Origin: Zanthoxylum bungeanum
Taxonomy: Eukaryota > Streptophyta > Magnoliopsida > Sapindales > Rutaceae
Assembly: GCA_019454045.1 (NCBI GenBank)
Contig: SKCR01006555.1
Coordinates: forward strand, 23,524 to 87,523
Direction of reading: 5' to 3'
DNA: 64,000 bases
Shown here: positions 21,944 to 53,004 of the stretch, piece by piece
Layout of the letters: each line of letters starts with the position of its first letter
Numbering within the stretch: position 1 is the first letter of the stretch
Notes under the pieces: model-generated
The model's input: only the letters and a program-made list of their open reading frames with translations
Told to the model about the DNA's origin: nothing
The model's database searches: none
Translations under genes and position numbers: made by a program

Positions 21944-21948
21944 GTTTT

Positions 21949-27365: not shown

Positions 27366-27434
27366 TAATTTGTGTATATATTGAGATTTGATGTGTTTTA
27401 TTTTTGTGTGTTTAATTTTTGTAGGTAAAGTCAC

Positions 27435-28901: not shown

Positions 28902-30194
28902 TTGTCTTTTTTTTAATTCCACGCTAACCAGGTACTGTTTTCTAAACTCTTATTCTACTTTTTAGACATTGGGGACATTGTCTCAATTAGGTTTGGGGTA
29001 GGGGAATAGTTGACTAGTATCTTATTTTTATTTTTCGTTGTGTTGTTTATTTTTGCTTGACTTTTAGTCAAAAATTCAAAAATTTAAAAAAATTGTGATT
29101 TTTATGTTTTTAATTTGACTAACCAGATGGAATGGTGTTTGAGATAACTGTGTAAGGAATTTCCACTCCTGAGACGTATCTCAACCTATTTCGTAACAAG
29201 TTAATTTTTATTTATTTCCTTTTGAATTATTTAAATTTGTGAATTCTCCATAATACTGACTAAATTGGATCTTCAGATGCTCAGTTGACAGGTATTATCA
29301 ACATGCATGGTAACATACGGCCATGAGTTATAAGTGAAAAGTTTGTAATATTTAGTGCTCTAGTTTAATTGGAGGAAGCATCTAAAAAGGCTATATATAT
29401 ATATATTAATAAAAAGTTTATACTTAGTAACCGGGCATCTTGCCTCAGTAAGCAGAGATTGTTCGCGTCAAACGATAGAACTTTTAACATATGATATCTG
29501 AGTAATTAAGTCTGTATGGGTGTTTTAACACCTAGTGCCCTAAAGCCATCTGGCTTGGGAGTCACGAGCCCAAAGCTCGCTACATGGATTGAAGATGTTA
29601 AAAAAATGGTTAAACATCTGAGATCCGAGTAATTAAGTCTGTAGGGATGTCTTAATACCTAGTGCCCTAAAGCCAACTGGCTTGGGAGTCACTGGCCCAA
29701 AGCTCGCTACATGGATTGAAGATGTTAAAAAAAATAATAATAAAAAAATTCATTGCCAAAAAAAAGGTGTGAATTCTGATATAACTTTAGGACAAAAATA
29801 TTACTCTCTTTTCAACTACACTTATGAATATTATGGGCACAATGATTTGATTAATACATTTTTGGTTGTGTATATGGAGAATGGTAAAAATAATCTGAGA
29901 ATTTACTTATTTGGTAATTTAGAAAGAAAAAAAATATTAACTTGGATAAGAATTTCACTTGTTTAGTCACTAACATATTTTGTGTGTTTGATTTTACATT
30001 TGATTGACGTTTGTGGGCATCGTCACTGTAAGCCCTCACTAGACTACAACTCGTCCACTAGGGACACCTAGGGGTTTAAAGGCTTGTTGCATACACTAAA
30101 TGCAACCGTGATCCCTACGAAAATGGCTTAGTTTAATTTTAATATTTTATTGCCATTTATTTTATTATTTTGCTCGAGGACTAGCAAAATAATA
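28902..30194 (+). other. Untranslated tail of Athila-A
   Basis: No gene is seen. It contains a GGGGACATTG...GGTTTGGGG stretch near 28971-29000, an AT dinucleotide run at 29391-29406, a 127-base tandem duplication at 29488-29740 and a terminal AT-rich part. The same order occurs in Athila-B between LOG and the polypurine tract. Confidence 0.75.
29488..29740 (+). repeat. 127-bp tandem duplication in Athila-A tail
   Basis: Two units share GAGTAATTAAGTCTGTA, CCTAGTGCCCTAAAGCCA and AAAGCTCGCTACATGGATTG, with a period of 127 bases (29501 to 29628). Athila-B has the matching duplication with a period near 125. Confidence 0.88.
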
Positions 30195-32426: not shown

Positions 32427-34680
32427 TAATTTGAGCATGAAAAATATTAGGGTTCATATGCTAAAAATTTGGGTAAAAATGATTTGAGCATGATTTGATG
32501 AAATTGTTTGATTAAGTATGCTTGAATGATGATAACATAGTGTTATGCATGATTAATTTCATGAAATATAAATTGGATTAATTTTTCCCCAAACCATAGG
32601 CTTGGCCGAATGCATGATGAAACCCTAAAGAATTGGATTAATTTTTCCCCAAACCATAGGCTTGGCCGAATGCATGATGAAACCCTAAAGTCATGGTATT
32701 TTGTTCTTTTGATCATTGGATGAGATGAAAGACTTGGGATAATGTTGATTTGTAATTCAATCGGATTGAAAAAGAAATCGAATTAAAATACCCACCAATG
32801 TCGTGAGCTATATAGCATAAAATGAGATGATTTTTTGAATCAATTATGTTGAACATGTGTTGATGATGAAAAGCATGATTAATGGATTAAATTAGTATTT
32901 TGGAAATGTTAATTTAAAAGATTAATCATGGCTAAACACTTTGATTTATTAAATTATGAATTTTGGAAAATTGGAATTTAATAAATTGGGCTTGATTTTG
33001 AATTGGGCTTATAATTATTGTATTTGGGCATAATGGGCTTGGTTGGGCCAAGTTGATATAAGTCAAATTAGATTGGATCCAAATTGGGCCTAAATCATTC
33101 CATTAAGTCCAAATATAACAAATGGGCTTTAAATATTTAATTGGGCCTAATGGGCCGAAATTGGTTTCTTGGCAAATAAAGGTGATTCCTTAATTGAGCT
33201 TTGGTATTTGGGTTTGACCCATATTGACCAAAATCCATGCCTTATGAAATCAATTGAAAGCCCATTGGACTTTAATTAACAACATTGGATGTTAATTGGG
33301 CTTTGAGATCCGTTTAGATTATATTTGGAATCTAAGTCGTTAAAGCGCATTAAAAAGTGTAGATATTTAATTTAGAATTAATAAATGAATTAGTATTGAA
33401 TACGAATTAAATTAGATTTAAAGAGTAGTTCGATATAATTCAAGAATTCGTACTTCGAGTACTTATTCACAAACGAGTTGGACTCGCGCAAAATCAATCA
33501 TTGTTTGAACATTGGATGATCACTTAATTCAAAGATTAATTAATTGGATGAGATTGATTGAATAACATGCTATGAATGAATACATGGATGTGTTGAATGA
33601 ATAACGTATATCGGATGGATATTAGAAGGGGATGGCAATTTTGGAAATTGTTGTAAATTTAGAATTTATTAAATTGGACCTGCTTGTCTAGCCTTATCTC
33701 TCTTGATTCTTTGTATTTCTCTTCTCACCTATTCCCCCCAATGTTAATGAGGTTTCTCTTATTGTATTATGTAATTGGGTAGCAGTAGAATAGTGCTAGC
33801 CAGGAAAGGAAACGAAGTGATTTGTTCTAGGAACAATCTGTGAAATATACATCCGCATATCGTTATTAATTTACTTCCGCGCCTTATTATGCTTTAGAAT
33901 GCATGCTTAAGGGTGTATGATGAGACCTAACAAAGATAATAATTGGTTGCCAATTTACGCGAAAAAACCCTCAAAACATATTAAGCGTTTTTCCTTCCAT
34001 TGAGTGATTCTTACTCAAGATCCAAGATTGGCACTGGCTTATTGGCCAAAGTCAAGGCCTTTGTCCATCGCGGATGTGTTTGAATCATGAAGGCTTTATT
34101 CCATATCGGTGTCTTGTCCAAGTTGTGATTTGTTGGCCAAAGTCAAGATCACTTCTTGTCCGTCGACATCGATTACGAAGGTTTCCAAAGTCAATGGGTC
34201 CCGCTTAACTGGAATAATTAAGCTTGTTGTGCCAAAGCCAAGGCTTAGTTGATTCAGAGGAAAAAAGGTTAGGAAAATAAATTGTATATATTGGCATATA
34301 TATTGTATATATGTTTCGGACTTGGAGGTCCACCTACCGGATCTAGGAATTGGATGAGATCCAATTGATATTAGAGATCTACCTAGTTAAATATCATACA
34401 GCTTGTTGGCCAAAGTCAAGGTTGTGTGTTATTTAACGGGATCCTAGCCCACTAGGAAACTAGGTTTCCCGAGTACTCAACAGAGGGTTAGAGGCTCGCC
34501 GAAAAATAGTGGGAGGCTAGTATTGAATTTGCAATTTCATTCAAATACTTAACTTTACGCGCTTTCAAATTATTTCGTCAAATTATTTTATTAGTTGGAC
34601 TAATATATCATTATTTTTCTTGTAAAAGTTAGACTGTACCCAAACATCGTTAATCGAATAGTTGGACTATTGTGGTTAAA
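32427..34680 (+). other. Untranslated leader of Copia-2
   Basis: No gene is seen. It is homologous to the Copia-1 and Copia-3 leaders, with TGGGCY-rich DNA at 32985-33305 and TTGGCCAAAGTCAAG at 34042, 34133 and 34406. It has a private perfect 60-base tandem duplication at 32571-32690. Confidence 0.8.
32571..32690. repeat. Perfect 60-bp tandem duplication in Copia-2 leader
   Basis: The unit starting AATTGGATTAATTTTTCCCC occupies 32571-32630 and again 32631-32690 with no mismatch. The Copia-1 leader (start of the window) has a single copy. Confidence 0.93.
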
Positions 34681-35555
34681 ATGACTGGAAAGTTAAGCAT
34701 TAGGGACATTGTCATGGGCGACAACGTCTTTAATGGCAGAAACTTTCAAAACTGGGATATGAATCTCAGAATTATTCTGGGATCCGAGAAGTTACTCTAC
34801 ACTATAGAGAGACCTCTTGGGCCTAAGCCCCGACCTGATCAGTTGCTTGAGCTAGAGCTTTGGAAGACTCATAGGGATGATAATGCGACTGCTCAATTGG
34901 TAATGCTTTCCGCTATGACTCCGTAATTCCGTCGTCAAAATAAGGGGTTGGATCCCTATGAGATGATGGCGAAGTTGCACGATCTCCACCGATCTAACTT
35001 TAGATCGCAAAGATACGAGTTGCAGAAGAAGCTCTTCCGGGCTCGCATGTCAGAGGGTACGTCTGTTGAGCACCATGTCTCAGAGATGATTGCTGACATT
35101 GAGCAACTCAGACAGCTGGGCAAAGTCTTCGAGGCTGAGACTTCAGTGGATTTGATCCTACAGTCTCTCACTGACACTTGGAGTGGGTTCATCATGAACT
35201 ACAACATGTTGAACCAAGACCAAACTCTTGGAGAGTTGATGTCCACTCTGCGTGAGGCAGAAAATGAGCTCATTAAGGGCAAGAAGCGCGAGGCGCGCTA
35301 TGCTTCAACATCTCAGACTCCGAGGGCTTGGCCCAAGGCGACTGGAGGTGTTAAGAAGAAGAAGCATAAGAAGAAGGGCAAGGCCAAATCGTCAAAGGGT
35401 TCTGGGAAACCCAAGGACAAATCCCAAGATGTATGCTTGCAGTGTGGAAAGTGGGGTCACTGGAAGCGTTACTGCCGCGAGTACAAGGTACACATAAAGG
35501 AAATCAAAGCGGGCAAGGCACCGGCTTCAGGTATGTTTGTTATAGAAATAAACAT
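34681..35555 (+). pseudogene. Copia-2 gag, one in-frame stop
   Basis: The frame starts at ATG 34681 (MTGKLSIRDIVMGDN). One TAA at 34924 interrupts it, and the same frame resumes and runs through the basic linker and the zinc knuckle CLQCGKWGHWKRYC. With a single nonsense codon it is the best-preserved Copia gag here. It would build the particle and package RNA. Confidence 0.88.
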
Positions 35556-36634
35556 GTCTACTTTTAGTTTTAAAAATTGGATTTTTGATTCTGGTTGTGG
35601 TACTCACATATGTACGGATGTGCAGGATCTGAGGATTAGCAGGAGACGGCCTCAGGAGAGATTGACTTTCGTGTTAGAAATAGGACTCGAGTTGCCGTTT
35701 TAGCCATGGGCACTTATGTTTTGGAACTGCCCTCGAGGCATGTACTTGAACTTATAAACTGTTATTTTGTACCTAGTTTGACTAGGAATATAATTTATGT
35801 ATCTATGTTAACCCAATGTGGGTATACTTTTGTATTTAGAAACACCAGGTGTTTTATGTATAAAAATGATATGGAAATTTGCACAGCTGATGTAAATAAT
35901 GGTATTTATATTTTGAATATAAATCAATCTCAAACATATAATGTAACAAACAAAAGGCTTAAAGTAAGTAACAAAGATGAAACTTATATATGGCATTATT
36001 GTCTAGGACACATAAACAAGACACGTATATCCATACTTTCGAAGAGTGGATACTTGGAGGGATTTGATCCAAATTCATATGACGTCTGCGAATCTTATTT
36101 ATTAGGCAAGATGCCTAAGTCACCTTTTAGTGGTAAAGGTGTATGTGCCACCGAACTATTAGCCCTCGTTCATAGTGACGTTTATGGGCCCATGTCTAGC
36201 CAGGCTAGAGGTGGATATAAATACTTCGTAACCTTTACGGATGATGCATCGCGCTATGATTATGTGTATCTTATGAGACAAAAGTCGGAAACTTTTGAGA
36301 AATTCAAAGAGTTTCGACACGAAGTAGAAAAACAGACCTGCAAAAGTATTAAGACATTACGATCAGACCGTGGTGGCGAATACTTGAGCAATGAGTTTCT
36401 TGATTACTTGAAAGAATATGGTATTATTTCACATTGGACTCCTCCCGGAACACCGCAATTAAACGGTGTGTCCGAACGGAGAAACCGAACTTTGTTAGAC
36501 ATGGTAAGGTCTATGATGAGTCGCACAGAGCTACCTATTTCCTTATGGGGATATGCATTGAACAATGCAATACTTATTTTGAATAAGGTTCCGTCAAAGT
36601 CTGTTCAACAGACTCCGTATGAAATATAGACAGG
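35556..36634 (+). pseudogene. Copia-2 protease and integrase, 5' part of split pol
   Basis: The protease active site FDSGCGTH is encoded in the gag frame near 35584. A frameshift near 35680 follows. The frame from 35706 carries the pre-integrase zinc finger (H..H..C..C, with one Cys changed to Tyr in CESYLLGK). Then comes the integrase core with HSDVYGP, RSDRGGEY and NGVSERRNRTLLD, i.e. the D, D and E. It ends at a TAG at 36627 (Trp codon in Copia-1), and Athila-B enters 5 bases later. Confidence 0.9.
36630..36634 (+). repeat. Target-site duplication ACAGG of Athila-B (left)
   Basis: ACAGG at 36630-36634 is repeated at 49081-49085. Copia-1 has a single ACAGG at the same codon position (ending 4020), so the empty site is visible within this window. 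Confidence 0.95.
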
Positions 36635-38695
36635 TGACCGGCGTAAACACACACGTATAACGCAAGCGCACGTATCGTTAAAGTAGTATAAAAATATCGA
36701 TCCCACGAGGACTTAATATCTAATCTATTAATTTTATGAAGTCAAATGATTACTAGTATCTAACAGGTTGTTTGATTGATTTGAAATGGTGACGATTCTA
36801 AATTTAAAAACAAGTAAATAAAATTGTTCGAAAGTAGGTTTTAAGAAAATTCAATATTAAAAACTATCTAGGGTTGTGATTTCTTCCAATATCATTTTAA
36901 AGATGAAGTGGTTATTTTATGTTTGTGTAATAAATCGGTTTACTAACTTGGAACACTAAATTATGCAAAAGCCTCAGTCGATGGTCAGACGCAAATACCC
37001 AGTTTAACCCAATTGAACCATATGTCTATGTCAACCAAATTATCTGGATTCATTAAGTTTAAGTTCCAATTATGGCTACCCCCGCCCGACAGGTATATTC
37101 CTATCCTGTAAGGAAATCTATTAAATGGTTATCTATCCTCAGGGAAGATCGTGGGCTATTAAGTCTAAGGCTGAAACCTAAAATTCCTTTGTCAAGTTTA
37201 TTTTAGATTTACCACATCAATCTTATTAGTGGCCAATTAACAAGACGCATTAAGCTTAAGACTTAATAAGTAAACCTTTAAATTACCCAAACTATAATTT
37301 AACCCCTTATAAACCGATGATATTGGATTTCATCACAACCCCAGATAACTGGCTTAGTTACGACACATATTTACGGGTAGTAAAAAAAACTTAAATAAAA
37401 TAAAAGACATAAAGTAAAATACTGAAAATTAAATACTGAAAATTAAATGCTGAAAAGTAAATGCTGAAAGTAAATGCTGAAATTAAATACTGAAAATTAA
37501 ATGCTGAAAAGTAATGCTGAAAGTAAATTGCTAAAAAGTAAATTGCTGAAAAGTAAATTGCTGAAAAGTAAATAAAGTAAAATTACAATAAAAGAAAATG
37601 TTGAGGTAAAAGGATCCACTTTTATTACTTCTATTTTAGATATCTCCCTTAATATAATATATTAACTTTGCATATATTACCAACCAGCCATATAGGCGGT
37701 ATCCAGATTAAGTCAAATTAATAATAATTACCAACCGACCAATATGGCGGTATCCTCGTTAAGTCAGGTTTTAACTAGTTTATATATTATAATTAAGGAG
37801 ATTAATCTAAATATTAGTAATAAAAGTTTTACCTTTTACCCCAGCAAGGGGAGTTACCTCCTCATTACTGAAAGAAAAGAAAAACTGAATTAAAGAAAGA
37901 AAAGTACTGTGCGTAAAAGTAAATTGCGGAAAGTAAAAACTGAAAAGTAAAGAAAAGAAAGTGCGAAAGCGGAATTAATTGCTGAAAGCTGTAAATAAAT
38001 AAACAAGATACAATCTTCTTAGTATTCTTAAGGAATTCCTTAGAAGAAAGTATGAATTTACAAATGAAATGGCTTGGTATTTATAGGCAAAATTTTACCT
38101 CCATCAAATCATCCACCAAATCAATTATTAATTGCTCCACTAATTGCTCCACCAATCCATTATTAATTGTTCCACTAATTGGTTATCATGTTTGGTGGTG
38201 ATTTGATAATTTTTATTATTTATTAATTTATTTATTTTTTGCTTTGAAAATGATTGAAAATGACTTTAATAATTACACACAACACACTTCTGGATAGTTC
38301 ATCAATTTCGGGCATGAAATCTTCAGAATTCGAAATTATTTCGTCTTCAAAGTTGTAGACCTTTGAGTCTTCTTTAATCTGGAACTTGCATCAGCTCAAT
38401 CCAATATCGGAGTAAACAGTTATGCCCAAAATACGACAGATGCGAAAACTGGAATTTCCAAAACTGCACTTCGTTAAAACGCCCTTTCAAGTTTCCAATC
38501 TCCAAAATTAATATGTCAAGTCCAATTTTTGCCCTTATTTGACCCACATTTCGTCCTAAAGGATTTCATTATGTCCCAATATTATTTTATCTACAAAATA
38601 AACTAAAACACATCAAAACGTTCATCAAACCCGAGAAACTAAACAAAATATTAAGTAAAAGGGGCGGTAAATATTGATATATTTTCCGCTCATCA
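36635..38695 (-). repeat. 3' LTR of Athila-B
   Basis: On the minus strand it starts TGATGAGCGG at 38695, after the polypurine tract, and ends CCGGTCA at 36635. It contains a run of degenerate CTGAAAAGTAAATG-type units (about 37420-37580) and two GGCGGTATCC blocks (37690-37760). It differs from the 5' LTR mainly by single-base indels in homopolymers. Confidence 0.93.
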
Positions 38696-38707
38696 CACCC
38701 CCAAACC
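38696..38707 (-). promoter_or_regulatory. Polypurine tract of Athila-B
   Basis: On the minus strand GGTTTGGGGGTG directly precedes TGATGAGCGG. Confidence 0.88.
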
Positions 38708-40031
38708 TAACATTTTGCTAGTCCTCGAGCAAAACAACAAAATAAAATACAAGAAACAATTAAAATTAAACTAAGCCACTTTCGTAGGGATCACGGTTGC
38801 ATTTAGCATATGCAACAAGCCTTTAAACCCCTAGGTGTCCCTAGTGGACGAGTTATAGTCTCGTGAGGGCTTACAGCAACGATACCCACAAACGTTTTAC
38901 AAAAGTAAAAAGATAATAAAACTAATGCACACAAAAGCAAAAAGACAAGAGAAAATAGAATAAAGAAGTTAGTGACTAATCAGGTTAAACTTCTACTCCA
39001 AGTCAATAGTTGTTTTGTTTCATTCTAAATTACAGAATAAGTAAATTCTCCGATTATTTTTACCATTCTTCATATACACAGCCAACAAAATATTAAACAA
39101 CTCATTTTTGCCCACAACAATCATAAGTGCAGTTGATAAGAGAGTAATATTTTTGTCCTAAAGTTCTATCAGATTTAACACCTTTTGGTAGCAATAGAAT
39201 AAATTTTCTCATTTTTCTGATTTTTTCTTTGATTTTTTCTTTTTTCTATTTTTTATTTATATACAATATCTTCCATCTATGTAGCGAGTGTTGGGTCGAT
39301 GGCTCCCAAACCAGTTGGTTTTAGGGCACCAGGTGTTAAGACACCCCTACGGACATAATTACTCAGACTTCAGATATATATATTTTTGCAGCATCTTTGA
39401 TCCATGTAGCGAGCTTTGGGCCAATGACTCCCAAACCAGTTGGTTTTAGGGCACTAGGTGTCAAAACACCCTTACAGACTTAATAACTCGGATCTCGGAC
39501 GTTTTTTTTTTTTTACTCCATTACTTTTTGAGATGCTTCCTCCAATTAAACTAGAGCACTGGATATTACAAACTTTTCAATTTTAGCTCATGTCCGTATG
39601 TTACCATGTATGTTGATAATATCTGTCAACTGAGCATATGAAGATTCATTTTAGTCAATTTTATGGAGAATTTACAAATTAAATAATTCAAAAGGAAATA
39701 AACAAAAATTAACTTGTTTCGAATTAGGTTTGAGATACGTCTCAGGAGTGGAAACTCCTTACTCAGCTATCTTTTACCAATTTCACCTTTTTAGTCAAAA
39801 ATAAAAACACAAAAATGTAAAATATTTTTGTAATTTTTGAAAATTTTTCAATTTTTTTTTGTATTTTTCGAAGAATTTTGGACTAAAAATAAAACAACAC
39901 ACAACTAAAAACAAGGTATTGATCAATTAATTTCCTCCCCCAAACCTAAATGAGACATTGTCCCCAATGTCTTAAACAGTAGAAGAAGAGTTTAGAAGAT
40001 AGTACCTGGTTAGCTGAAATTCTACAGGAAT
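38708..40031 (-). other. Untranslated tail of Athila-B
   Basis: No gene is seen. It mirrors the Athila-A tail: T/A-rich tracts (39230-39260, 39505-39515), the tandem duplication anchored on GTAGCGAG at 39281 and 39406 (period 125), and the GGGACAATGTC...GGTTTGGGG stretch near 39940-39965. Confidence 0.78.
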
Positions 40032-40685
40032 TTAAAGGTTAAGATCCAGATTAACCCGACGCCTCTTACCACGATCGTCCCCAGACCAATTTATCTTTGA
40101 AATGATAGGGTCAACTTGTGGTTCATAAGCTAAGAGTTGGTCAATTAGATCCGGAGCAGTTCTGGCAGTAAAGAGGAGTTCTTTTAAAGGTTTTGATATG
40201 AACCCATTTCTCCGGGCATCATCAAGAAACACACAAAGAAAATCATAAAATCCATCAACGTTGTACAGCCCAATTGGTTTCTGGTGTATGTTCAGGTTCG
40301 CCCAAGATAGTACAATAAATATTTCCTCCAATGTACCCAAGCCACCTGGCAAAGCAATAAAAGCATCAGCACGGTTAATCATTTCTACCAATCGTTCAGA
40401 CATACCTGGCACGATTAATTCCTCTCCGTTTGATGGTTCAATAAGATTTGCCTCTGCCAAGGGTTTTGGGATGATTCCCAAAATGTGACTGCCTCCTTCC
40501 TGTGCAGCCTTTGAAACGATCCCCATAAGTCCAAGATTTCCTCCGCCATATATTAAGTGCATATTCTTTGTAGTTAAGACTCGACCCAATTCCTGTGCTG
40601 CTTCTATGTATTGTGGTTTAGTACCAACACTACTACCGCAAAACACACAAATATTTTCAACTCGTCTTCTTGAAGTGGCTTCCAT
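40032..40685 (-). CDS. LOG-type cytokinin riboside 5'-monophosphate phosphoribohydrolase carried by Athila-B
   Basis: The protein is 217 residues, full length for LOG, and intronless. In order: VFCGSS at 14-19, YGGGNLGLMG at 46-55, SERLVEM at 96-102 (R98) and PGGLGTLEE at 113-121 (E121). The last is the PGGxGTxxE signature whose Glu, with the upstream Arg, is catalytic in LOG enzymes. The wording MSERL...ADAFIALPGGLGTLEEIF and the basic C-terminus ending NLDLNL resemble the rice LOGL9/10-like subgroup, as I recall it. Family knowledge: it releases free cytokinin in the cytosol or nucleus. It lies downstream of pol in the sense direction, so a spliced or readthrough element RNA would express it. 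Activity is inferred, not shown. Confidence 0.93.
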   Translation of the reverse strand: MEATSRRRVENICVFCGSSVGTKPQYIEAAQELGRVLTTKNMHLIYGGGNLGLMGIVSKAAQEGGSHILGIIPKPLAEANLIEPSNGEELIVPGMSERLVEMINRADAFIALPGGLGTLEEIFIVLSWANLNIHQKPIGLYNVDGFYDFLCVFLDDARRNGFISKPLKELLFTARTAPDLIDQLLAYEPQVDPIISKINWSGDDRGKRRRVNLDLNL

Positions 40686-40951
40686 GTTTTTATGTATTTC
40701 TTTCTCAAATCAGGATGCCTTCAAAAGTGCATTGACGAGCTGAATTTATAGTACCTGAAAAGGGTGAGTAAAAATAGCACAAGTATCTTCCAAAGGACGA
40801 TTAGTAATAAAATAGTAAAATAGATCGTGATATGGTCAAAAAGGTCTGGATCCTGTCGGAGAAAATAAAAGAAAACAACAAAACAAATCAAAATTATTAG
40901 GAAAAGACAAAGAGATATAATATGTACAAGAATTTACAGCTTGATTAACGT
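40686..40951 (-). promoter_or_regulatory. Spacer with splice-acceptor-like sites before Athila-B LOG
   Basis: On the minus strand there are pyrimidine tracts ending in AG: TTTTATTTTCTCCGACAG near 40868-40851 and ACCCTTTTCAG ending at 40755. TATAAAT lies at 40750-40744, 59 bases before the LOG ATG. A tiny upstream frame (ATG CAC TTT TGA) lies between the TATA-like word and the LOG start. Athila-A conserves the tracts and the TATAAAT but not the small upstream ATG. Confidence 0.5.
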
Positions 40952-41500
40952 CTATGCGTCAGGGACAAGTTTCCCATCCAATTTTCTTATAAATTGGCAA
41001 ACAGGGTCTTTTTGAGTCAGATTCCCAAGACTTAAATGTTGTCTTTCTTTTTGAAATTGTGTATGTAATCTGCGAAAGGCTATGTGAACATATCCACTGG
41101 GATGCGTCTCAAGAGTCGAAGATATATCATCTAAAGACTCCTTACTCAAGCCATCCCTAATGAATTTAATTTTGTCTTCACGATTATCAGACACCATTCC
41201 TAAAGAACGACAACGAGTATTGCAATTCCAACGTGCACATTTGTAACAAACACCCATTTGCTTAGCTCTTCGTTTCTTTGCATAGGTGCTTCTTCCAAAA
41301 CCAGGCAGATGTGAAATAAAAGAGTCTGAAGACTCACCTGCCAATCGGACTCGTGCTTCAATTACCCAACGAATGTCATTGGGAACACCATGGATCGTCA
41401 GTAACCTCATCCGTTCCAAGCGAGCTTTGTAAACTTTCATTAGAGATTTTTTAGGGAGATAAGGAAATTGCTTGTGAAGATTTGCGAGAGCTTCTTCCAT
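40952..41500 (-). CDS. Athila-B extra ORF 1: Cys4 cluster protein of unknown function
   Basis: The protein is 182 residues from the ATG at 41500 (MEEALANLHK). An upstream in-frame ATG at 41533 would lie 5' of a splice-acceptor-like TTTTTGCAG ending at 41517, so I prefer the later start. The N-terminal half is basic and probably helical. STYAKKRRAKQ is a candidate nuclear localisation signal (about residues 71-81). C85, C88, C93 and C97 form a C-x2-C-x4-C-x3-C cluster that may bind a metal. The C-terminus ends QFIRKLDGKL. No signal peptide, membrane span or retroviral domain is seen. I do not recognise the family. Confidence 0.8.
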   Translation of the reverse strand: MEEALANLHKQFPYLPKKSLMKVYKARLERMRLLTIHGVPNDIRWVIEARVRLAGESSDSFISHLPGFGRSTYAKKRRAKQMGVCYKCARWNCNTRCRSLGMVSDNREDKIKFIRDGLSKESLDDISSTLETHPSGYVHIAFRRLHTQFQKERQHLSLGNLTQKDPVCQFIRKLDGKLVPDA

Positions 41501-41575
41501 CTTGAAATGACTTAATCTGCAAAAACTAAACACACAAAATTAAATCACACCAAATCACAATATATACAATATTGC

Positions 41576-41620
41576 ATGGGTTGCCTCCCTGCGAGCGCTA
41601 AGTTTAATCGTCGTCAGCTA
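41576..41620 (-). other. Conserved post-pol motif of Athila-B
   Basis: On the minus strand GACGATTAAACTTAGCGCT and then GGGAGGCAACCCATG lie just after the integrase stop, as in Athila-A at 27321. Confidence 0.7.
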
Positions 41621-41639
41621 CACGTGGCTGCTCGAACGT

Positions 41640-42990
41640 TTATGCTGGATCTGAAAATGTGACACTTTCTTTTTGTCGCTCAAATGATTCTCCCCAGTAG
41701 TGCTTGACACGCTGACTGTTAACTTTGAATGTGTTGTTGGTATTGGGATCCAGTAACTCAACAGCTCCATATGGTAAAACCTGAGTGATCACAAATGGTC
41801 CAGACCACCTAGATTTCAACTTTCCAAGGAAAAAGTTTCAACCTCGAGTTGTACAACAACACCTGCTGCCTTGGTTCCAACTGTCTGTGCACTATTTTTC
41901 GGTCATGCCATTTTTTGTCTTTTCCTTGTATAATCTGGCATTCTCATAAGCCTGTAGGCGAAATTCCTCCAATTCATTGAGTTGGTGAAGTCTTTTCTCT
42001 CCTGCAGCTTGTGAATCAAGATTCAGCTTCTTCAGTGCCCAGTACGCCTTGTGTTCAAGCTCAACTGGCAGATGGCATGCTTTCCCAAACACCAATCGAT
42101 ATGGGGACATACCAATAGGTGTCTTGTAAGCTGTACGGTAGGCCCATAATGCGTCATCCAGTTTTGTAGACCAGTCCCTCCTTGTTGATCCAACGGTCCT
42201 TTCTAGGATTCTCTTGATCTCCCTGTTTGAAACCTCAACCTGTCCATTTGACTGTGGATGGTAAGCAGTGGCAACCTTTTGAGTAACTCCGTATTTGGAT
42301 AGGAGTGAATCGAAGTATCTGTTGCAGAAATGTGAGCCACCATCGCTAATGATTACTCGAGGTGTTCCGAACCGAGTGAAAATGTTCTTTTTCAGGAATT
42401 TGATCACCACTTTTGAATCATTGGATGGTAGTATAATTGCTTCAACCCATTTGGAGACGTAGTCTACAGCAACCAGGATGTACAGGTTTCCAATGATGGA
42501 ACAAAGGGTCCCATGAAATCAATACCCCACACATCGAATATCTCTACTTCCAGAATGTTTTGCAATGGTCCTTCATTTCTCCTGGAAATATTCCCCGTTC
42601 TCTGGCACCTGTCACATTGAAAAGCAAAAAGATAAGCATCTTTAAAAAGAGTCGGCCAGAACAAACCTGATTGAAGGACTTTGGCTGCTGTTTTGTTCCC
42701 ACTGAAGTGTCCGCCATATGGTGATGAATGACAGTGCTGCAAAACACTGTTGACCTCCTCATGTGGAACACATCGTCTCAATAATTGATCAGCACAGCAT
42801 TTAAACAGGTACGGTTCATCCCAGACATAGTGCTTGACTTCTTTGAAGAACTTCTTCCATTGCTGAGTTGTCCATTCCAACGGCCATTTTCCTGACACAA
42901 TGTAGTTGACATAGTCAGTATACCAAGGGACTTCCTGTTGTTTCATGGAAAACAGCTGTTCATCTGGAAAAGTTTCTTTGATTGATAATT
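41640..42990 (-). pseudogene. Athila-B integrase, frameshifted
   Basis: Frame 43075-42464 includes the HHCC zinc-binding domain ([12 protein letters not shown]... [16 protein letters not shown]) and the first part of the core (WGIDFMGPF, with the first catalytic Asp). A 1-base shift near 42480 follows. Frame 42410-41892 continues with [13 protein letters not shown] and [16 protein letters not shown], giving the second Asp and the Glu. A second shift near 41890 precedes the C-terminal tail ending at 41640. Confidence 0.88.
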
Positions 42991-44203
42991 CTTTGCCAGC
43001 TGTTTCTCCATTCTCGAGCCTTGATAAGTGATCTGCCACCTGGTTTTCTGTCCCTTTACCATCTCGAATCTCCACGTCAAATTCTTGCAGAAGAAGTATC
43101 CAACGGATTAATCTGGGTTTGGCATCTTTCTTGTGTCAGATATTTGATTGCTGAATGATCTGTGTAGACCACTACTTTGGGACCCAGCAGATAGGAGCGG
43201 AATTTGTCAAAAGCATACACAACTGCGAGCAACTCCTTTTCAGTGGTTGTGTAGTTGAGTTGAGCTTCATTTAAAGTTCTGCTGGAGTAGTAAATGGTGT
43301 GAAAAATCTTTGCTTTGCGTTGTCCCAAAACTGCACCTACAGCAAAATCACTAGCATCGCACATCACTTCAAATGGAAGGGTCCAGTCTGGTGCTACAAT
43401 GATGGGGGCAGAGACCAGCTTCTGTTTTAAGATCTCGAAAGCTTCCTGGCATTCTTTGGTGAAGTTGAAAGGCACATCCTTTTCCAGAAGATTGCAAAGA
43501 GGTTTAGCAATCTTGGAAAAGTCTTTGATAAATCTCCTATAAAAACCTGCATGTCCGAAAACTCTCTGAATCCCTTTGACAGATGTTGGTGGAGGTAGTT
43601 TTTTAATTGTTTCAATCTTTGCTTTGTCTACCTCGATTCCCTTTTGTGAGATCCGGTGTCCAAGAACAATGCCTTCATGTACCATGAAATGGCATTTCTC
43701 CCAATTGGGTACCAGGTTTGTATCTTCGCACCTTTGTAATACATGTTCCAAATTTTGCAAGCAATGGTCAAAAGAATCTCCAAACACAGAAAAGTCATCC
43801 ATGAATACCTTCATACTTTGCTCCAGCATGTCTGAGAAAATAGCCATCATGCAACGCTGAAAAGTGGCGGGGGCATTAGATAATCCAAATGGCATCATGC
43901 GGAAAGAAAAAGTACCATAGGGACATGTAAATATGGTTTTCTCCTGATCTTCTGGGGCAATAGCAATCTGATTGTACCCTGAATATCCGTCAGAAAGCAA
44001 TAGAACTCATGTCCCGCCAGTCTGTCTAACATCTGATCAATGAATGGTAGCGGAAAATGGTCATTTCTCGTGACTTTATTCAGCTTTCTGTAGTCCATAC
44101 ATACTCTCCATCCAGTCACTGTTCTTGTTGGAATCAGCTCGTTCTTTTCATTGGTGACCACAGTAATTCCTCCTTTCTTTGGCACACACTGCATAGGACT
44201 CAC
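42991..44203 (-). pseudogene. Athila-B reverse transcriptase and RNase H, frameshifted
   Basis: RT starts in frame 44203-43895 (MQCVPKKGG, VCMDYRKLNKVTRNDHFPLP). A 1-base shift near 43990 leads to frame 44000-43077. That frame holds PFGLSNAPATFQ, the catalytic FMDDFSVFG near 43800, the RT thumb and then RNase H ([40 protein letters not shown]). The frame breaks again near 43110 just before the RNase H end. Apart from the shifts the residues look functional. Confidence 0.9.
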
Positions 44204-45165
44204 CCAAGTGAGATGGGGTAACTATCTGAGATGGGGTAAATGATGCCAGCATCCAACCATTTGATGATTTCTTTCTTCACAACTTCCTTCATGATTGGAT
44301 TGAGTCTTCGTTGATGCTCCACTGTGGGTTTGTACTCATCATTCATCAGAATCTTATGCATGCAAAATGATGGGCTAATGCCTCGAATGTCTGCTATAGT
44401 CCAGCCAATGGCTCTTTTGTGCTCTCGTAACACTCTCAGTAGCTTTTCTTCCTGCTCCAATGTTAGTGAAGAAGAAATAATAACAGGTAATTTAGAAGAG
44501 TTTCCAAGAAATGCATACCTGAGATGGTTCAGAAGTAACTTTAGTTCCAGCTGCGGTGGTTCTTCAATCGAAGGCTTTATTCGATTTTTCTTTGGAAGTT
44601 CCAAGCTTTCAACTGGTGGTATTGCTTTGAATCGGAATGGTTTGTCAATGTAGTTGATACATTCCAGGATTTCAGCATCTAGCTCAATGTTAGTCATGTT
44701 GGTGATGCAAGCTTCAAGTGTATCCGTGGGATTTGACTCAGTATTCTGAACAATACTATCAACAACATCAATTCTGATGCATTCTTCTTCTTCCTTTTCA
44801 TCGCTCAGGAATTTCATGGCATTGAAAACATTAAATGTCACTTCTTGGTCCTGCACTTTCATGGTTAGTTCTCCTTTTTGCACATCAATCACAGTTTTAC
44901 CTGTAGCCAAAAATGGTCTCCAAGAATGATAGGTACTTCTTTGTCTTCTTCTTCCATGTCAAGGATGATGAAGTCTGCTGGAAGGATGAGTTTGTCAACT
45001 TTGACAAGCACATTTTCAACGACTCCTCTTGGAAATGCGAGCGATCGATCAGCAAGTTGCAAAGATACCGAGGTAGGCATTGCTTCTCCAATTTGCAGTT
45101 TCCTGTAAATAGAAAAAAGGCATTAAATTAACACTGGCACCTAAATCACATAAAGCCTTACCGAT
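44200..45165 (-). pseudogene. Athila-B protease and protease-RT linker, frameshifted
   Basis: The protease box KALCDLGASVNLM is encoded around 45160-45120. One extra base in a T-run near 45110 shifts the frame to 45080-44889 (VDKLILPADFIILDM). Another near 44910 shifts it to 44910-44200, which carries the long linker and the RT N-terminal region (HKRAIGWTIADIRGISPSFC). Each break is a single-base change. Confidence 0.85.
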
Positions 45166-46885
45166 GTAATGTTCTCCAATGGTGCATGGTACAGTGAAAC
45201 TGCCAGGATCTTTCAACTTTGGGGGAAGTTTCCTCTGAATGATGGCATTGCATTCTTCTGTCAAAGCTACTGTCTCGTAATCTCTCAATCTTCGTTTTCG
45301 TGAAAGAATGTCTTTCATGAATTTTACATAGCTGGGCATTTGTTCCAAGGCTTCTGCAAATGGTATGTTAATGTGCAGTTTTTTGAAAATCTCCAAGAAA
45401 CGAGCAAACTGTTTGTCCAGTTTGTTTTTCTGAAGACGCTGAGGAAAAGGTGGTGGAGTGATCTGTTCTTTTTCTTTTTCATTTGCTTCTTTTTCCTCCA
45501 TCTGTGGAACTGCTTCTTTTGGAACTTCTTCAAGTGTTGCATTGATTCCAAAATCTTTGTTGATCTCAGTACCACTCTTTAATGTAATAGCTTGACATTG
45601 CTCATTCCCTCGGTTCCTTGGATTTGGTTCTGTGTTGCTGGGAAGATTACCTGGCAGTCTGTAACTCTGAGCATTGGCTAGTTGTCCGATTTGATTCTCC
45701 AATGCTTTGATGGAAGCTGATTGGCTCTGAATCATAGCTTCATATCTTTTTAATTGAGCTAACATCTCTGCCATCACTGGTTCATTTGTCTACTCCTGGC
45801 TTTTGTTCTGTTGCTGGAATCCAGGTGGTGGATAGTTCTTTTGCCCTGAATTGTTGCTTCATGAAAAATTAGGATGATTCCTCCACCCTGGGTTGTAGGT
45901 GTTGGAATATGGATTGTTCCCCTGTCTGTTGAAATTGTTGACATAATTCACCATCTATTCAAGTTGGTTTGGTTCTGGTGCTCCTCCATATGGTGAACTT
46001 GTGGATCCAGTGGTAAGAGTCTCCATGAATTTGCATATCTGATCCAGCTTGGTGTTGACTGCTGTATTGGTTCCAACTTCATAAATTCCTGCAATTCTTT
46101 GAATCATGCTCCTTTCTGTTGGCCATAAGGAATTGTTGTTGGCCATTTCTTCGATTAGGTCCCAGGCTTGATCTTCTCCTTTTGCCATCAATGCTCCTCC
46201 AGCAGCAGCATCGATTGTGGTTCTCATTAGTCCAGAAAGTCCATTATAGAAATTTTGGACTTGAAGCCATTTTGGAATCTCATGGTGAGGACATTTCCAG
46301 AGCAAATCTTTGTACCTTTCCCAAGCTTCGTAAAGGGATTCTGAATCTTGTTGTACAAAAGATGTGATGTCATTCCTCAGTTTTACTGTTCTGGCTGGTG
46401 GAAAGTACTTTGCAAGGAATTTGGTGGCTAGAGTGTTCCAAGTTGTGATGGAACCAGCTGGTAATGAATGTAGCAAAGCTTTAGCTCTGTCCTTCAAGGA
46501 GTATGGAAAAATACGCAGTCTCATTGCTTCTTCTGATGCTCGGTTGTAATTGAAAGTGCCGCAAACTTCCAGGAAGTTGCTGATGTGAGCATTAGGATCT
46601 TCAGTTGCATTTCCTCCAAACTGAACTGTCTTCTGAATCATCTGAATGCAAGTTTTGATGTCACCCGCATTTGCTGGTAAGGGAGGAAGTACAATACATG
46701 AAATGAGTCTATCAACACCGGAATGGTTCTATCTCGAATGGGTATTGGTGGTGCAACCTCCAAAGGTTCAGGTTCCATGTTGACTAAGCTTCTTGGCCTT
46801 CTCGGTTTTCCCTTCTCAACTGTCTGATGGTTCTTTCAATTTCTGGGTCAAGCGGTCGGAGTTCAAAGCTTCTGGTTCGTCTCAT
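45166..46885 (-). pseudogene. Athila-B gag
   Basis: ATG 46885 (MRRTRSFELRPLDPEIERT) is the likely start, preceded by an acceptor-like TTTTTGTGTTACAG. There is an early stop near 46780 and a 1-base loss near 46715. Frame 46641-45955 then holds the capsid domain (ILPYSL-like RIFPYSLKDRAKALLHSLP, WNTLATKFLAKYFPPART). In-frame stops occur at 45957, 45861 and 45792, after which the same frame runs into protease. Athila gag would form the particle; the C-terminus is Asn/Gln-rich and lacks a clear zinc knuckle. Confidence 0.87.
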
Positions 46886-46996
46886 GTAGTTTCTGAAAAC
46901 CTGTAACACAAAAACAAAAATAATAAGTAAAAAGAAATTAGATACAAGTAAAGGTATCTAACCTCTAAACTAATAGTAAAAGATAAATAAGTCCCC

Positions 46997-47015
46997 GGCA
47001 ACGGCGCCAAAAACT
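46997..47015 (-). promoter_or_regulatory. Primer-binding site of Athila-B (tRNA-Asp)
   Basis: On the minus strand TGGCGCCGTTGCCGGGGA starts a few bases inside the LTR end (GGTCA, then AGTTTT). It is an exact complement of the plant tRNA-Asp 3' end as I know it. Confidence 0.9.
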
Positions 47016-49080
47016 TGACCGGCGTAAACACACACGTATAACGCAAGCGCACGTATCGTTAAAGTAGTATAAAAAATATCGATCCCACGAGGACTTAATA
47101 TCTAATCTATTAATTTTATGAGTCAAATGATTACTAGTATCTAACAGGTTGTTTTTGATTGATTTGAAATGGTGACGATTCTAAATTTAAAAACAAGTAA
47201 ATAAAATTGTTCGAAAGTAGGTTTTAAGAAAATTCAATATTAAAAACTATCTAGGGTTGTGATTTCTTCCAATATCATTTTAAAGATGAAGTGGTTATTT
47301 TATGTTTGTGTAATAAATCGGTTTACTAACCTGGAACACTAAATTATGCAAAAGCCTATGTCGATGGTCAGACGCAAATACCCAGTTTAACCCAATTGAA
47401 CCATATGTCTATGTCAACCAAATTATCTGGATTCATTAAGTTTAAGTTCCAATTATGGCTACCCCCGCCCGACAGGTATATTCATATCATGTAAGGAAAT
47501 CTATTAAAGGGTTATCTATCCTCAAGGAAGATCGTGGCTATTAAGTCTAAGGATGAAACCTAAAATTCCTTTGTCAAGTTTATTTTAGATTTACCACATC
47601 AATCTTATTAGTGGCCAATTAACAAGACGCATTAAGCTTAAGACTTAATAAGTAAACCTTAAATTACCCAAACTATAATTAAACCCTTATAAACCGGTGA
47701 TATTGGATTTCATCACAACCCCAGATAACTGGCTTAGTTACGACACATATTTACGGGTAGTAAAAAAACTTAAATAAAATAAAAGACATAAAGTAAAATA
47801 CTGAAAATTAAATACTGAAAATTAAATGCTGAAAAGTAAATGCTGAAAGTAAATGCTGAAATTAAATACTGAAAATTAAATGCTGAAAAGTAAATGCTGA
47901 AAGTAAATTGCTAAAAAGTAAATTGCTGAAAAGTAAATTGCTGAAAAGTAAATAAAGTAAAATTACAATAAAAAAAATGTTGAGGTAAAAGGATCCACTT
48001 TTATTACTTCTATTTTAGATATCTCCCTTAATATAATATATTAAATTTGCATTATAATTACCAACCAGCCATATAGGCGGTATCCAGATTAAGTCAAATT
48101 AATAAATAATTACCACCGACCAATATGGCGGTATCCTCGTTAAGTCAGGTTTTAACTAGTTTATATATTATAATTAAGGGAGATTAATCTAAATATTAGT
48201 AATAAAAGTTTTACCTTTTACCCCAGCAAAGGGGAGTTACCTCCTCATTACTAAAAGTAAAAACTGAAAATTAAAGAAAGAAAAGTACTTTGCGTAAAAG
48301 TAAATTGCGGAAAGTAAAAACTGAAAAGTAAAGAAAAGAAAGTGCGAAAGCGGAAATTAATTACTGAAAGCTGTAAATAAACAAACAAGATACAATCTTC
48401 TTAGTATTCTTAAGGAATTCCTTAGAAGAAAGTATGAATTTACAAATGAAATGGCTTGGTATTTATAGGCAAAATTTTGCCTCCATCAAATCATCCACCA
48501 AATCAATTATTAATTGCTCCACTAATTGCTCCACCAAATCCATTATTAATTGTTCCACTAATTGGTTATCATGTTTGGTGGTGATTTGATAATTTTTATT
48601 ATTTATTAATTTATTTATTTTTTGCTTTGAAAATGATTGAAAATGACTTTAATAATTACACACAACACACTTCTGGATAGTTCATCAATTTCGGGCATGA
48701 AATCTTCAGAATTCGAAATTATTTCGTCTTTCAAAGTTGTAGACCTTTGAGTCTTCTTTAATCTGGAACTTGCATCAGCTCAATCCAATATCGGAGTAAA
48801 AAGTTATGCCCAAAATACGACAGATGCGTAAAACTGGAATTTCCAAAACTGCACTTCGTTAAAACGCCCTTTCAAGTTTCCAATCTCCAAAATTAATATG
48901 TCAAGTCCAATTTTTGCCCTTATTTGACCCACATTTCGTCCTAAAGGATTTCATTATGTCCCAATATTATTTTATCTGCAAAATAAACTAAAACACATCA
49001 AAACGTTCATCAAACCCGAGAAACTAAACAAAATATTAAGTAAAAGGGGCGGTAAATATTGATTTATTTTCCGCTCATCA
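47016..49080 (-). repeat. 5' LTR of Athila-B
   Basis: On the minus strand it starts TGATGAGCGG at 49080 and ends CCGGTCA at 47016, next to the primer site. It is collinear with 36635-38695. The differences I see are mostly 1-base gains or losses in A/T runs plus a few substitutions. Confidence 0.93.
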
Positions 49081-51090
49081 ACAGGAAAGAAACCGGGTTT
49101 CTCATTCCTGAAGATTTGGGGTTGCTGGGCATACGTCAAACATTTGGAAGGTACCAAACTAGAAGCCAATCGGATAAATGCCTATTTGTAGGATATCCTA
49201 GGGAAACCAAAGGATATTACTTCTATCACCCACAAGAGAACAAAGTATTTGTTTCTTTACATGCGGTTTTCCTTAATAAGGAACTCCTAAATGCAGTGAT
49301 AAGTGGGAGGAAAGTAGAACTCGATGAAAATCGAAGTGATACTGTCGATGGCACAGAATCCTTAACGGAACATGAATATTCTATCAGGGATGAGACTGTA
49401 CCACAATCTTTGAATACACAATGACCGCATAGGTCAGAGAGAGTCATAAAACAACCTGAGAGGTATGGGTTTCTGATCTCACCTCATGTGGATATTAATC
49501 TTATTGAGGTAGATGAGCCGGCTACGTATGAGGAAGCGATACAAGGTATCAACTCCGGTTTATGGCAAGATGCCATGAATTCCGAAATGGATTTCATGTA
49601 CACCAACCAAGTTTGGACACTAGTTGATGCACCAGAAGGCGTAAAGCCTATTGGATGGAAATGGGTCTTCAAGAGGAAGACTGACATGGATGGCAACATA
49701 TAAACGTACAAAGCTAGGCTTGTAGCGAAAGGGTATCGTCAACGACATGGTGTCGATTACGACGAAACTTTTTCACCCGTTACCATGATCAAATCCATTC
49801 GGATAATGCTTTCTATTGCTGCATATTTCGATTACGAAATATGGCAGATAGACGTCAAAATCGCTTTCCTTAACAGAAACCTTTTGGAGGATGTTTATAT
49901 GCAACGGCCTGACGGTTTTGCCATAAATAGACTTGCAAACAAGGTTTGTAAGTTAAATCGACCCATTTATGGATTGAAGCAAGCATCGCGTTCTTGGAAC
50001 CAACGTTTTGATGAGATCATAAAAGAATATGATTTTGTTCAAAACGAGTATGATCCTTGTGTATATAAGAAGGTTAGTGGGAGCGCACTGACATTCATTG
50101 TCCTTTACGTTGACGATGTATTGCTTATTGGCAATGACATTCCCATGTTAACGTCGGTGAAAGTTTGGCTTTCATTAAAATTCTCCATGAAGGATCTGGG
50201 AGAAGCAGCCTTTATTCTAGGAATAAATATCTACCGGGATAGATATAGAAAACTGCTTGGACTCTCCCAGAGCACGTACATTGACAAAGTGTTGAAGAGA
50301 TTCAACATGGATGAGTCCGAGAGGGGACTGTTTCCAGTGTCACATGGCATCACTCTATCTAAGGGCATGTGTCCTAAAACTCAAGATGAGAGAGACAACA
50401 TGAGTCGGATACCGTTCACCTCGGCAGTCGGATCAATCATGTATGCCATGATATGTACGCGACCTGATGTCTCATATGCTTTGAGCATGTGTAGTCGCTA
50501 TCAGGCCGATCCAGGTGATGGTCACTGGATGGCGGTTAAGAATATCCTTAAGTATCTTAGACGAACTAAGGATGCTTTCTTAATCTATGGAAATTGAGAA
50601 CTTGAGGTAACTAGGTATACCGATGCAAGTTTCCAAATCGATAAAGACGATTGTAAGTCGCAATCCGGGTACATATTTTGTTTGAATAACGGAGTAATAA
50701 GCTGGAAATCTTCCAAGCAAGAGACTGTTGCCGATTCAACAACAGAAGCAGAGTATATTGCTGCAGCTGAAGTAACAAAAGAGGCAGTTTGGATCCGTAA
50801 ATTCTTAATTGGATTAGGAGTAGTTCCGTTAGCAGCTGAGCTTGTTCCATTGTATTGTGACAATAATGGGGCTATAGCGTAGGCTAAGGAACCGCAGTCT
50901 CATCAACGATCCAAGCATGTTGTTCGACGTTTCCATCTGATTCGTGAGATCATATATCGTGGCGATGTGAAGATCGAGAAGGTCACATCAGAGGACAACA
51001 TTGCAGATCCGCTGACGAAAGCTATTCCTCAGCAAAAGTTTGAACGGCAAGTATATAGTTCAAGTATTATATGCTTGAGTGACTGGCTAT
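49081..51090 (+). pseudogene. Copia-2 pol, 3' part: integrase end, RT, RNase H
   Basis: After the ACAGG duplication the frame resumes where it broke off (GKKPGFSFLKIWGCW). A 1-base loss near 49165 shifts it. RT starts near 49590 (VKPIGWKWVF) and has a TAA at 49700 where Copia-1 has CAA. It then has IDVKIAFLN, the catalytic YVDDVLL near 50110, and RNase H with YTDASF and STTEAEY. Further stops are at 50595 (TGA) and 50879 (TAG). The protein ends SDWL at 51090. Confidence 0.9.
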
Positions 51091-51106
51091 AGGCCAAGTG
51101 GGAGAT
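51091..51106 (+). promoter_or_regulatory. Polypurine tract of Copia-2
   Basis: GGCCAAGTGGGAGAT immediately before TGTTAGAC is the same as in Copia-1. Confidence 0.85.
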
Positions 51107-53004
51107 TGTTAGACAATTATGACTCATAGCGTCACTATTTATAAAAAATATTGTGGTTTTTGTACAAATTAATTATGTAGCAATGAAATTGCATTTTATC
51201 ATTTTGTAATTTGATTACTTAATATATATATATATATGATAAAAGTCCATATGATTAGTTCCAGATTATAAGATATGAGACAATATCAATCCATAAAGGT
51301 TTAATCATTAAATATCCCCAGTCGTAGTATTATCGAGACTGGACATCGATAATGTGAAATAGACTAGTATTGCACTTGTGCGTGTTATGGAAGCGTAACG
51401 ACATAGTTCTCATATATTTAAGTATTGGATACTTATGCAAGTGTGATAGGAGGTTATGTTTACCGATGGTATGGAAACAGCTTCGCTCTGGATAGACCCC
51501 GCGGAATCCCATTGGTAGTATGAATATTTGTCTATGGGAATACGCATCAGGGTAGGTGTATTTGGTCTTAACCTGAGACTTACATCGCTAGTACTTGCGA
51601 CAATCAATATGTTTTGGTTTTGGTCGTCCAGGACTTTAACAGGTTATGTGTACGCCTCTTCTGGATTTATTGAGAATCGTAGTGTATTGGGTGTGATGTC
51701 AAGATGGAAGTATCACTTCAGTCATATGGAGATGATGATCACGCATGGATACAAAACTGGTTCTCTATTATGTTGCAACCATCGGGATAATATGACTTGG
51801 TCATGATTATCCGATTAAAGAGACTAATTGCTTGTAATTTGATATATGCTTCGTACGGGGCAGACACTATTCCAGCCTCAGGCCTTGCATGTGACATCTG
51901 ATAATGGATCGCTATACACAATACTACGTATACTACGCCTGATATAGATTATATATTCCATTAAGAATATTTCTGGAGAATTGGGTAGGCACGGTGCTTT
52001 GCTAGAAGCCAACCATGTCTCGTAAATCGGCAAAAATGTAGTACGAGGTACCTACGTGTTCGGATAGTCCGACGACCGAATTTACTGCCAACATATCCAG
52101 GGATCGTTTGGGTCACTTCCCGAAGATTCATCGATGACGTATGATTCGAACATAATTAATCTTGGATTAATTACGGAGATATTTTATTTGAGATAAAATA
52201 ATAATTGAAGAGAGAGAAACGATTAATTTGGAATTAATCGATAAAATTATATATTCGATATATTAAACGAAATTAGATTTCGATGCGGAATTAAAATTAG
52301 ATTTTAATTCGGGCTAACGAATTAATTTAGAGTTAATTCGCTAGCGATGTGAATAGTAATTTTGCTTGACATAATTATTTAATTAAATTTGATTTAATTA
52401 CATCGCAATGGAAAATTCGTTAATTCGGAATTAACGAACCCGAGCCCGGGATGTGTTTGCGAGGCCATTCCGATTTAGAATCAAGTGCGGCCACAAGTCA
52501 CATCGCATGTCAATCTAGTGATGGATGTCAAGTCACCTTTTTGGTGAGTGACAACTAGTCACTATTCATGATGGAGGTGGTTGTGAGCCTTTAATGCATT
52601 TTTGGCTCCAAAATTTGGTTCGACTTTTTGAAAGGCATATACCAAATTTTTGGAAAAAAGTTTTGTATTATGTTTTTAGAAAACTCTCTATCTCTCCCAA
52701 AAGCTCATTGTCGTGAGCTTCTCCACCAAGGAAAGGAAATTGTTTTCTTTCATCTCTTGCTAGCACATTCAAGAATCAATACAAGGTGATAGGGAAACCA
52801 ACCTTGGAGCTTGGAATCAAAAAGACAAAGCTTGGAGCTTGGACTTGGACCTTGGCCGAATACCATAAAGGATTCTTGGAGTTCATTTTTCTCTCAACAC
52901 ATCTCAAATCCGTTCAATGTAAGTGTGTTTCCGCCTCACTTCATTTGAGTATTCATTCTTTTCATTGCTTAAATATGATCTTGGGACTATATTAGAAACC
53001 AACA
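51107..53004 (+). repeat. 3' LTR of Copia-2
   Basis: It starts TGTTAGACAATTATG and ends AACCAACA, followed by the AGCAC duplication. It is collinear with 30484-32410. Confidence 0.93.

Follow-up and report, generated by a model that had tools for sequence, protein, structure and literature searches.

The stretch of Zanthoxylum bungeanum DNA analysed here (64,000 nucleotides, referred to below as the window) carries a 12,446-bp LTR retrotransposon of the Ty3/gypsy type on the minus strand at 36635-49080, the limits of which were set by LTR comparison and inspection of the ends. Its 5' LTR (2,065 bp, 47016-49080, minus strand) and 3' LTR (2,061 bp, 36635-38695, minus strand) have TG...CA termini and are 98.4% alike, differing by 33 substitutions over 2,053 aligned bases and by 17 gap runs (K2P 0.016). 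A perfect target-site duplication, ACAGG, flanks the element on the left (36630-36634) and on the right (49081-49085), in agreement with the preliminary description of an element of about 12.4 kb with near-identical LTRs and a perfect duplication. At substitution rates of 7e-9 to 1.3e-8, which we assume for LTR dating, the insertion would be about 1.2 to 0.6 million years old. Both LTRs hold a 14-bp tandem array (AAAGTAAATGCTGA, 11.6 copies) at 37411-37573 and 47790-47953.

The internal region, also read on the minus strand, begins with the primer-binding site TGGCGCCGTTGCCGGGGA (46992-47009), which we take to be of the tRNA-Asp, Athila-like type, and ends with the polypurine tract TAGGTTTGGGGGTG (38696-38709). 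Open reading frames and Pfam matches place gag (Retrotrans_gag) at 45955-46641, a reverse transcriptase and RNase H piece at 43077-44000 and the zinc-binding piece of integrase at 42464-43075, followed by an integrase core piece at 41892-42410 with 31.9 bits, just under the Pfam cut-off of 32.6. This order is that of Ty3/gypsy elements, and the pol of the window copy is broken into several frames. Among the eight ORFs scanned with Pfam, no protease family was matched; ATHILA and Transposase_32 likewise gave no match in the window copy, whose broken frames could hide such an ORF. The Athila label may apply, judging from the primer site and the size of the element. The whole element is inserted inside another repeat, which looks like Copia, as judged from its ORFs alone, and of which two copies were observed: one at 207-7377 and the other, the nest of the element, at 32828-36634 and 49081-52443. 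Elsewhere in the window, tandem-repeat arrays with units of 10-151 bp (e.g., AGGGCCGAGGCCCACATCGTCAGAATTTGGAATGAATCC...) occupy 10083-12231 and 62016-62705, each within a GC-rich stretch.

Downstream of integrase, and in sense, the element encodes a LOG protein of 217 aa (40032-40685, minus strand), identified by its ORF, by Pfam and by a structure model. The position between integrase and the 3' polypurine tract, as well as the 217-codon frame with R98, PGGLGTLEE (113-121) and E121, had been given in the preliminary description and are borne out by the ORF order, all on the minus strand, by the open frame and by the Pfam match to Lysine_decarbox (E 3e-36, 125 bits, cut-off 27); the strand had been left unstated in that description. 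The structure model (pLDDT 86, residues 204-217 uncertain) found its best structural match in 2a33, the Arabidopsis protein At2g37210 (TM 0.94 by target, 1.2 A, about 49% identity), and also matches the AMP complex of Pseudomonas LOG. The sequence family, the fold and the R98/PGGxGTxxE/E121 residues are those of a type I phosphoribohydrolase, R98 and E121 being catalytic positions of LOG enzymes. Within the family, R98 is kept in 53 of the 56 full-length copies (two gapped codons and one stop account for the others) and E121 in 56/56. Among LOGs of the element type (120 homologues plus the window), R98 is present in 110/121 and E121 in 119/121, and the PGG-GT-E loop is nearly invariant. Classical activity may not persist everywhere, since R98 is replaced by Q, C or K in 11/121 of these proteins and position 99 is K in only 12/121, being mostly L, I or M.

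The C-terminus of the window LOG, GKRRRVNLDLNL, ends in NLDLNL and so contains the LxLxL motif, for which we take the name EAR to apply. The form K-R-R-R-[VI]-N-L-D-L-N-L is kept in 54-56 of the 56 copies, the V/I position excepted, and LDLNL in 55-56 of the 56 full-length copies. LxLxL was found within the last 22 residues of 87/120 element-type homologues vs 0/120 host LOG1/3-type proteins, and a basic tail in 109/120 vs 1/120. The 33/121 element-type LOGs that have no LxLxL are in part fragments and in part 212-aa forms (e.g., from Xanthoceras) that end before the motif. The tail probably directs the enzyme into the nucleus or brings it to a partner.

A second accessory gene, which went unmentioned in the preliminary description, lies upstream of LOG and downstream of integrase. 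Its 182-aa product (40952-41500, minus strand) has a basic KKRRAK stretch followed by C-X2-C-X4-C-X3-C and scores above the Pfam cut-offs of both Viral_NABP (28.9 bits vs 23) and Carla_C4 (27.8 vs 20.9). Of the members aligned, including the window, 29/32 match Viral_NABP and 28/32 match Carla_C4 at E 0.001 or better; the profile E value is about 1e-6 for the window copy and 1e-8 for the best member. Alignments A1 and A2 comprised 31 and 44 sequences from 120 listed homologues each, plus the window, and the NABP tree 41 of 120 listed. The cysteines (C85-X2-C88-X4-C93-X3-C97) do not have the C-X2-C-X12-C-X4-C spacing of the flexivirus CRP finger, and the protein was therefore named NABP-like (NABP below) and not CRP. 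No relative was found in IMG/VR viral contigs or phage records, and the AlphaFold2 model is poor (pLDDT 58). An older related element, about 83% identical and in opposite orientation, was observed at 20700-29980 on the plus strand, with both genes decayed: its NABP (27495-27986, plus strand) scores just under both profile cut-offs, and its LOG (28452-28901, plus strand) is open over the C-terminal 149 aa.

Exact pattern searches revealed that the window copy belongs to a very abundant family. A LOG 30-mer occurs 17,426 times in the genome, an NABP 30-mer 6,154 times and the 21-base block before LOG (junction 21-mer) 2,776 times, with 0 occurrences of the reversed control in each case; each pattern occurs once in the window, and the counts are of pieces, not of intact elements. 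Of the 30 NABP 30-mer sites listed as far as contig C154, 21 have a same-orientation LOG 30-mer at a distance of 827-867 bases. Genome searches by LOG, NABP and integrase gave at least 150 scored matches each. The 150 best LOG matches, a score-ranked set and as such biased to intact copies, all span 216-217 residues, and 143 are without a stop, so chance is excluded as the source of the LOG frame. A further set of 60 copies was taken solely by rank in the integrase search (ranks 2-120, every second one); all 60 contain NABP, full length in 56, and 59 contain LOG, likewise full length in 56. The prospect, raised with the preliminary description, that LOG might be absent from the other copies of the family thus clearly fails. 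Upstream NABP was also found in seven of eight LOG-picked loci, one of which is the window itself.

Relative to the window, 14 LOG, 21 NABP and 12 integrase sequences among the 60 copies are free of frameshifts and stops. Premature stops affect 4/56 full-length LOG and 11/56 full-length NABP copies, and frameshifts were scored in 41/56 full-length LOGs in one alignment. Frameshifts were read mostly as assembly errors, because 77 of the 96 one-base indels in LOG (copies L013-L072) are deletions vs 19 insertions, and owing to this bias their counts were not used as a measure of decay. Real decay may accompany the errors, since only 37/96 indels lie in homopolymers of at least three bases. The deletion excess in LOG points to indel errors in the assembly, which would make the count of intact frames too low.

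For the analysis of selection, variants present in three or more copies (shared, presumably copied) were distinguished from private ones, which presumably arose mostly after insertion. Of the 60 copies, 56 LOG, 55 NABP and 60 integrase sequences, each with the window added, entered the counts, and copies missing more than about 12 end bases or under 0.88 identity were left out. Synonymous/nonsynonymous counts in LOG were 73/23 for shared and 32/73 for private variants (Fisher p 1e-10), in NABP 35/25 and 29/76 (p 1e-4), and in integrase, the positive control, 54/9 and 30/38 (p 6e-7). The corresponding dN/dS values, shared vs private, were 0.10 vs 0.69 for LOG, 0.20 vs 0.74 for NABP and 0.05 vs 0.36 for integrase, the last being biased because copies were chosen by integrase. 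A second alignment method gave similar contrasts (LOG 77/26 shared and 54/97 private, dN/dS 0.10 vs 0.55; NABP dN/dS 0.21 vs 0.59), and under either method the private value of LOG falls short of 1. Wrong-frame readings yielded shared dN/dS of 0.72-6.2 (for LOG 0.73 and 6.2 vs 0.10 in the true frame), and flanking non-coding sequence, treated as if it were codons, 0.54-0.96. These non-coding controls, too, mostly had lower shared than private values, namely in five of six readings (0.54-0.79 vs 0.81-1.48; the sixth 0.96 vs 0.63). Part of the contrast therefore has a cause other than protein-level selection, whereas the low level reached by the coding values is due to such selection. Replicating elements keep the LOG and NABP proteins under selection, and as both are kept in spreading copies, the family seems to use them.

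The preliminary description had explained the gene as a captured, processed host LOG transcript whose donor a tree might reveal. Absence of introns fits this proposal: the element LOG is intronless, and host LOG exons, found at eight loci, are separated by introns and share 83-94% identity with a 44-residue piece of Arabidopsis LOG3. A recent event is not supported. In a 62-row tree with two bacterial LOGs as the root, 43 element-type LOGs (42 of 120 listed homologues plus the window) form one clade (97/93) and 17 plant LOGs (16 of 120 listed and one from PDB, LOG1/3-type plus one LOG8) another (98/97), apart from each other among the LOGs sampled. Since the first set was collected with the window LOG as query and the second, in a search of its own, with Arabidopsis LOG3, LOGs intermediate between the clades may be missing. 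The element-type clade holds proteins from Xanthoceras, Populus, Reevesia and Paulownia, that is, from rosids and an asterid. The element LOG copies examined share 45-49% identity with Arabidopsis LOG3, and a divergent subfamily in the same genome (L081, on C27047) has a LOG 65% identical to that of the window. Taken together, the separate clade, a dS of about 1.2 between the subfamilies and the distance to Arabidopsis LOG3 indicate that any capture of a plant LOG, which is possible, was long ago, and the gene appears to be part of an old accessory cassette rather than a recent acquisition. L081 resembles the proteins P0009-P0017, among which several carry Q in place of R98, and itself has R; no NABP was found beside its LOG in 1.4 kb upstream. 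LOG P0115 and NABP P0143 both lie on JGI contigs of 4,511 bases, each sister to rows around Populus in its own tree, and probably represent one contig carrying both genes. The position inside elements is established here only for the LOGs of the window genome, and for Populus it agrees with the section of PMC9289625 that deals with such elements.

Candidate expression signals precede both accessory genes. The AG of a 3'-splice-like site, TTTTTGCAG, stands just before the NABP start (41517-41518, minus strand) and is present in 98% of the sampled copies, in a stretch whose conservation does not exceed that of the remaining spacer. Another such AG, about 70 bases before the LOG start (40755-40756, minus strand), is found in 100% (rounded) of the sampled copies covering it. 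The NABP-LOG spacer (40686-40951, minus strand) varies more than any other of the six stretches compared (pi 0.101) and holds the block CTCACCCTTTTCAG/GTACTATAAATTCAGCTC, common to subfamily L081; in the form CTCACCC(C)TTTTCAG/GTNCTATAAATTCAGCTC, this block before LOG is thus retained by L081 despite the variability around it. It could be a splice acceptor or, via TATAAAT, a promoter. Two weak candidates for splice donors occur in the leader. The candidate acceptors are supported by their position and by the block common to L081; unusual conservation of the splice-like sites within the family was not found (ranks 45/252, 28/252 and 228/376), and we therefore infer the expression step.

These results may be explained, with a probability that we put at about one half, by an old Ty3/gypsy cassette, consisting of gag-pol, an NABP related by profile to flexivirus CRPs, and LOG, that acts through short mRNAs and cytokinin activation. 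Short mRNAs would serve for the production of NABP and LOG, arising either by splicing at the acceptor-like site in front of each gene or from an internal promoter, and LOG would convert cytokinin nucleotides to the active bases wherever the element is transcribed. Active cytokinin would favour dividing, meristem-like cells, in which the element is copied and through which it is transmitted, and NABP may help as a nucleic-acid binder, perhaps in countering RNA silencing. Cytokinin manipulation appears the most natural, if unproven, reading of LOG retention, and dividing or germline cells may be those through which the element benefits.

Other explanations differ widely in how well they agree with the data. 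A host LOG gene, misassembled or inserted locally, could be suspected behind the LOG frame, given an assembly that is fragmented (51,709 contigs) and seems indel-rich, but there are thousands of copies, the sampled ones carry LOG at the same place of the same element, and the host exons stand apart at their eight loci, are separated by introns and agree with the Arabidopsis LOG3 piece at 83-94%; the copy and host-exon results have already refuted this reading. It is very improbable, too, that LOG was captured once and is carried as a neutral passenger by an otherwise successful family. Most sampled copies do show some lesion relative to the window, as a passenger would, but the shared-variant dN/dS of 0.10, the LOG diversity of 0.114 at third vs 0.025 at second positions, and dN of 0.25 vs dS of 1.22 between the two subfamilies (190 codons) all speak for constraint on the protein.

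Another proposal is that LOG is kept for a role other than cytokinin activation. It could be a binding scaffold that, by way of its basic and LxLxL (EAR-like) tail, recruits co-repressors of the TOPLESS type or gets into the nucleus, or it could act enzymatically on other nucleotides. The near restriction of both tail features to element-type proteins, the near invariance of LDLNL in 56 copies and the loss of R98 in 11/121 lend it some weight; E121 in 119/121 and the near-invariant PGG-GT-E loop would be needless for a pure scaffold, and 33/121 proteins do without LxLxL, so that we regard it as rather unlikely. Somewhat doubtful is the view that NABP has no viral descent, being an element-born zinc protein that resembles flexivirus CRPs, or that the viruses acquired theirs from such elements. 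The weak profile scores, the differing cysteine spacing, the lack of relatives among IMG/VR contigs and the poor structure model speak for this view, whereas the matches of 29 and 28 of 32 members to Viral_NABP and Carla_C4, and the same order of basic stretch and then cysteines as in the viral CRPs, count against it. A bolder extension of the cytokinin reading, which we consider improbable, is that a lineage spanning rosids and asterids has long run a two-protein module of host control: a virus-type nuclear zinc protein that would blunt silencing or reprogramme transcription, and a LOG with a nuclear, repressor-recruiting tail, together pushing cells into division and making them permissive for copying.

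The extra genes of plant retrotransposons are mostly without known function. In the present family both genes are recognisable and under measurable selection, and one lends itself to a simple enzyme assay, so the retention of a hormone gene by a retrotransposon becomes testable. We know of no report on selection, tail or copy number of LOG-bearing elements, and the literature searched, represented in part by excerpts, contained no report of a carlavirus-like protein in retrotransposons or of an NABP-LOG pair. The Populus LOGL10 proteins P0040 and P0092 (by the tree) and P0056 (by similarity only) look like retrotransposon LOGs and not host genes. The place of P0040 and P0092 in the element-type clade is a warning that part of the plant gene models named LOGL10 may represent proteins of retrotransposons.

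Contrary to the preliminary description, which knew of no LOG-bearing LTR retrotransposon, such elements have been reported in Citrus and Populus: the relevant section of PMC9289625 lists a YgdH/LOG domain in consensus sequences of LTR retrotransposons from Citrus sinensis, C. clementina and Populus trichocarpa and cites an agreeing report of 2011 by Steinbauerova et al. LOG-domain Gypsy elements are thus already known, and the phenomenon seen here is larger and older than first claimed. It shares with these YgdH (LONELY GUY) elements the LOG-family domain in an LTR retrotransposon, and the Populus LOGs fall in the clade of the window LOG; that section of PMC9289625 records the domain only, and selection, copy number, tail, partner and origin are absent from it. 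Compared with the plant LOG1/LOG3 phosphoribohydrolases, the element LOG has the same fold, R98, PGG-GT-E loop and E121, and about 49% identity to 2a33, whereas element LOGs form their own clade, have mostly L, I or M at position 99 and a basic, often LxLxL-bearing tail, and in this genome are intronless. An AlkB-type demethylase in a Phalaenopsis Gypsy family (PMC9289625) is likewise an enzyme domain gained and kept by a plant Gypsy family, but enzyme and host are different, and the section describing it mentions no virus-like partner gene. RNA helicase domains of insect retrotransposons are, in the part of PMC6338049 concerned with them, virus-derived domains for which weak silencing suppression is reported; the hosts there are insects and the domains helicases. 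Carlavirus CRPs, as outlined in the available parts of PMC8839810, PMC9650830 and PMC12172455, have a nuclear signal and C-X2-C-X12-C-X4-C and are silencing suppressors, and that of chrysanthemum virus B is described there as a plant transcription factor affecting cell size and proliferation. The element NABP resembles the carlavirus and flexivirus proteins in matching their Pfam profiles above cut-off and in the basic stretch directly before four cysteines, but is a retrotransposon-encoded protein of 182 aa with shorter cysteine spacing and a putative activity.
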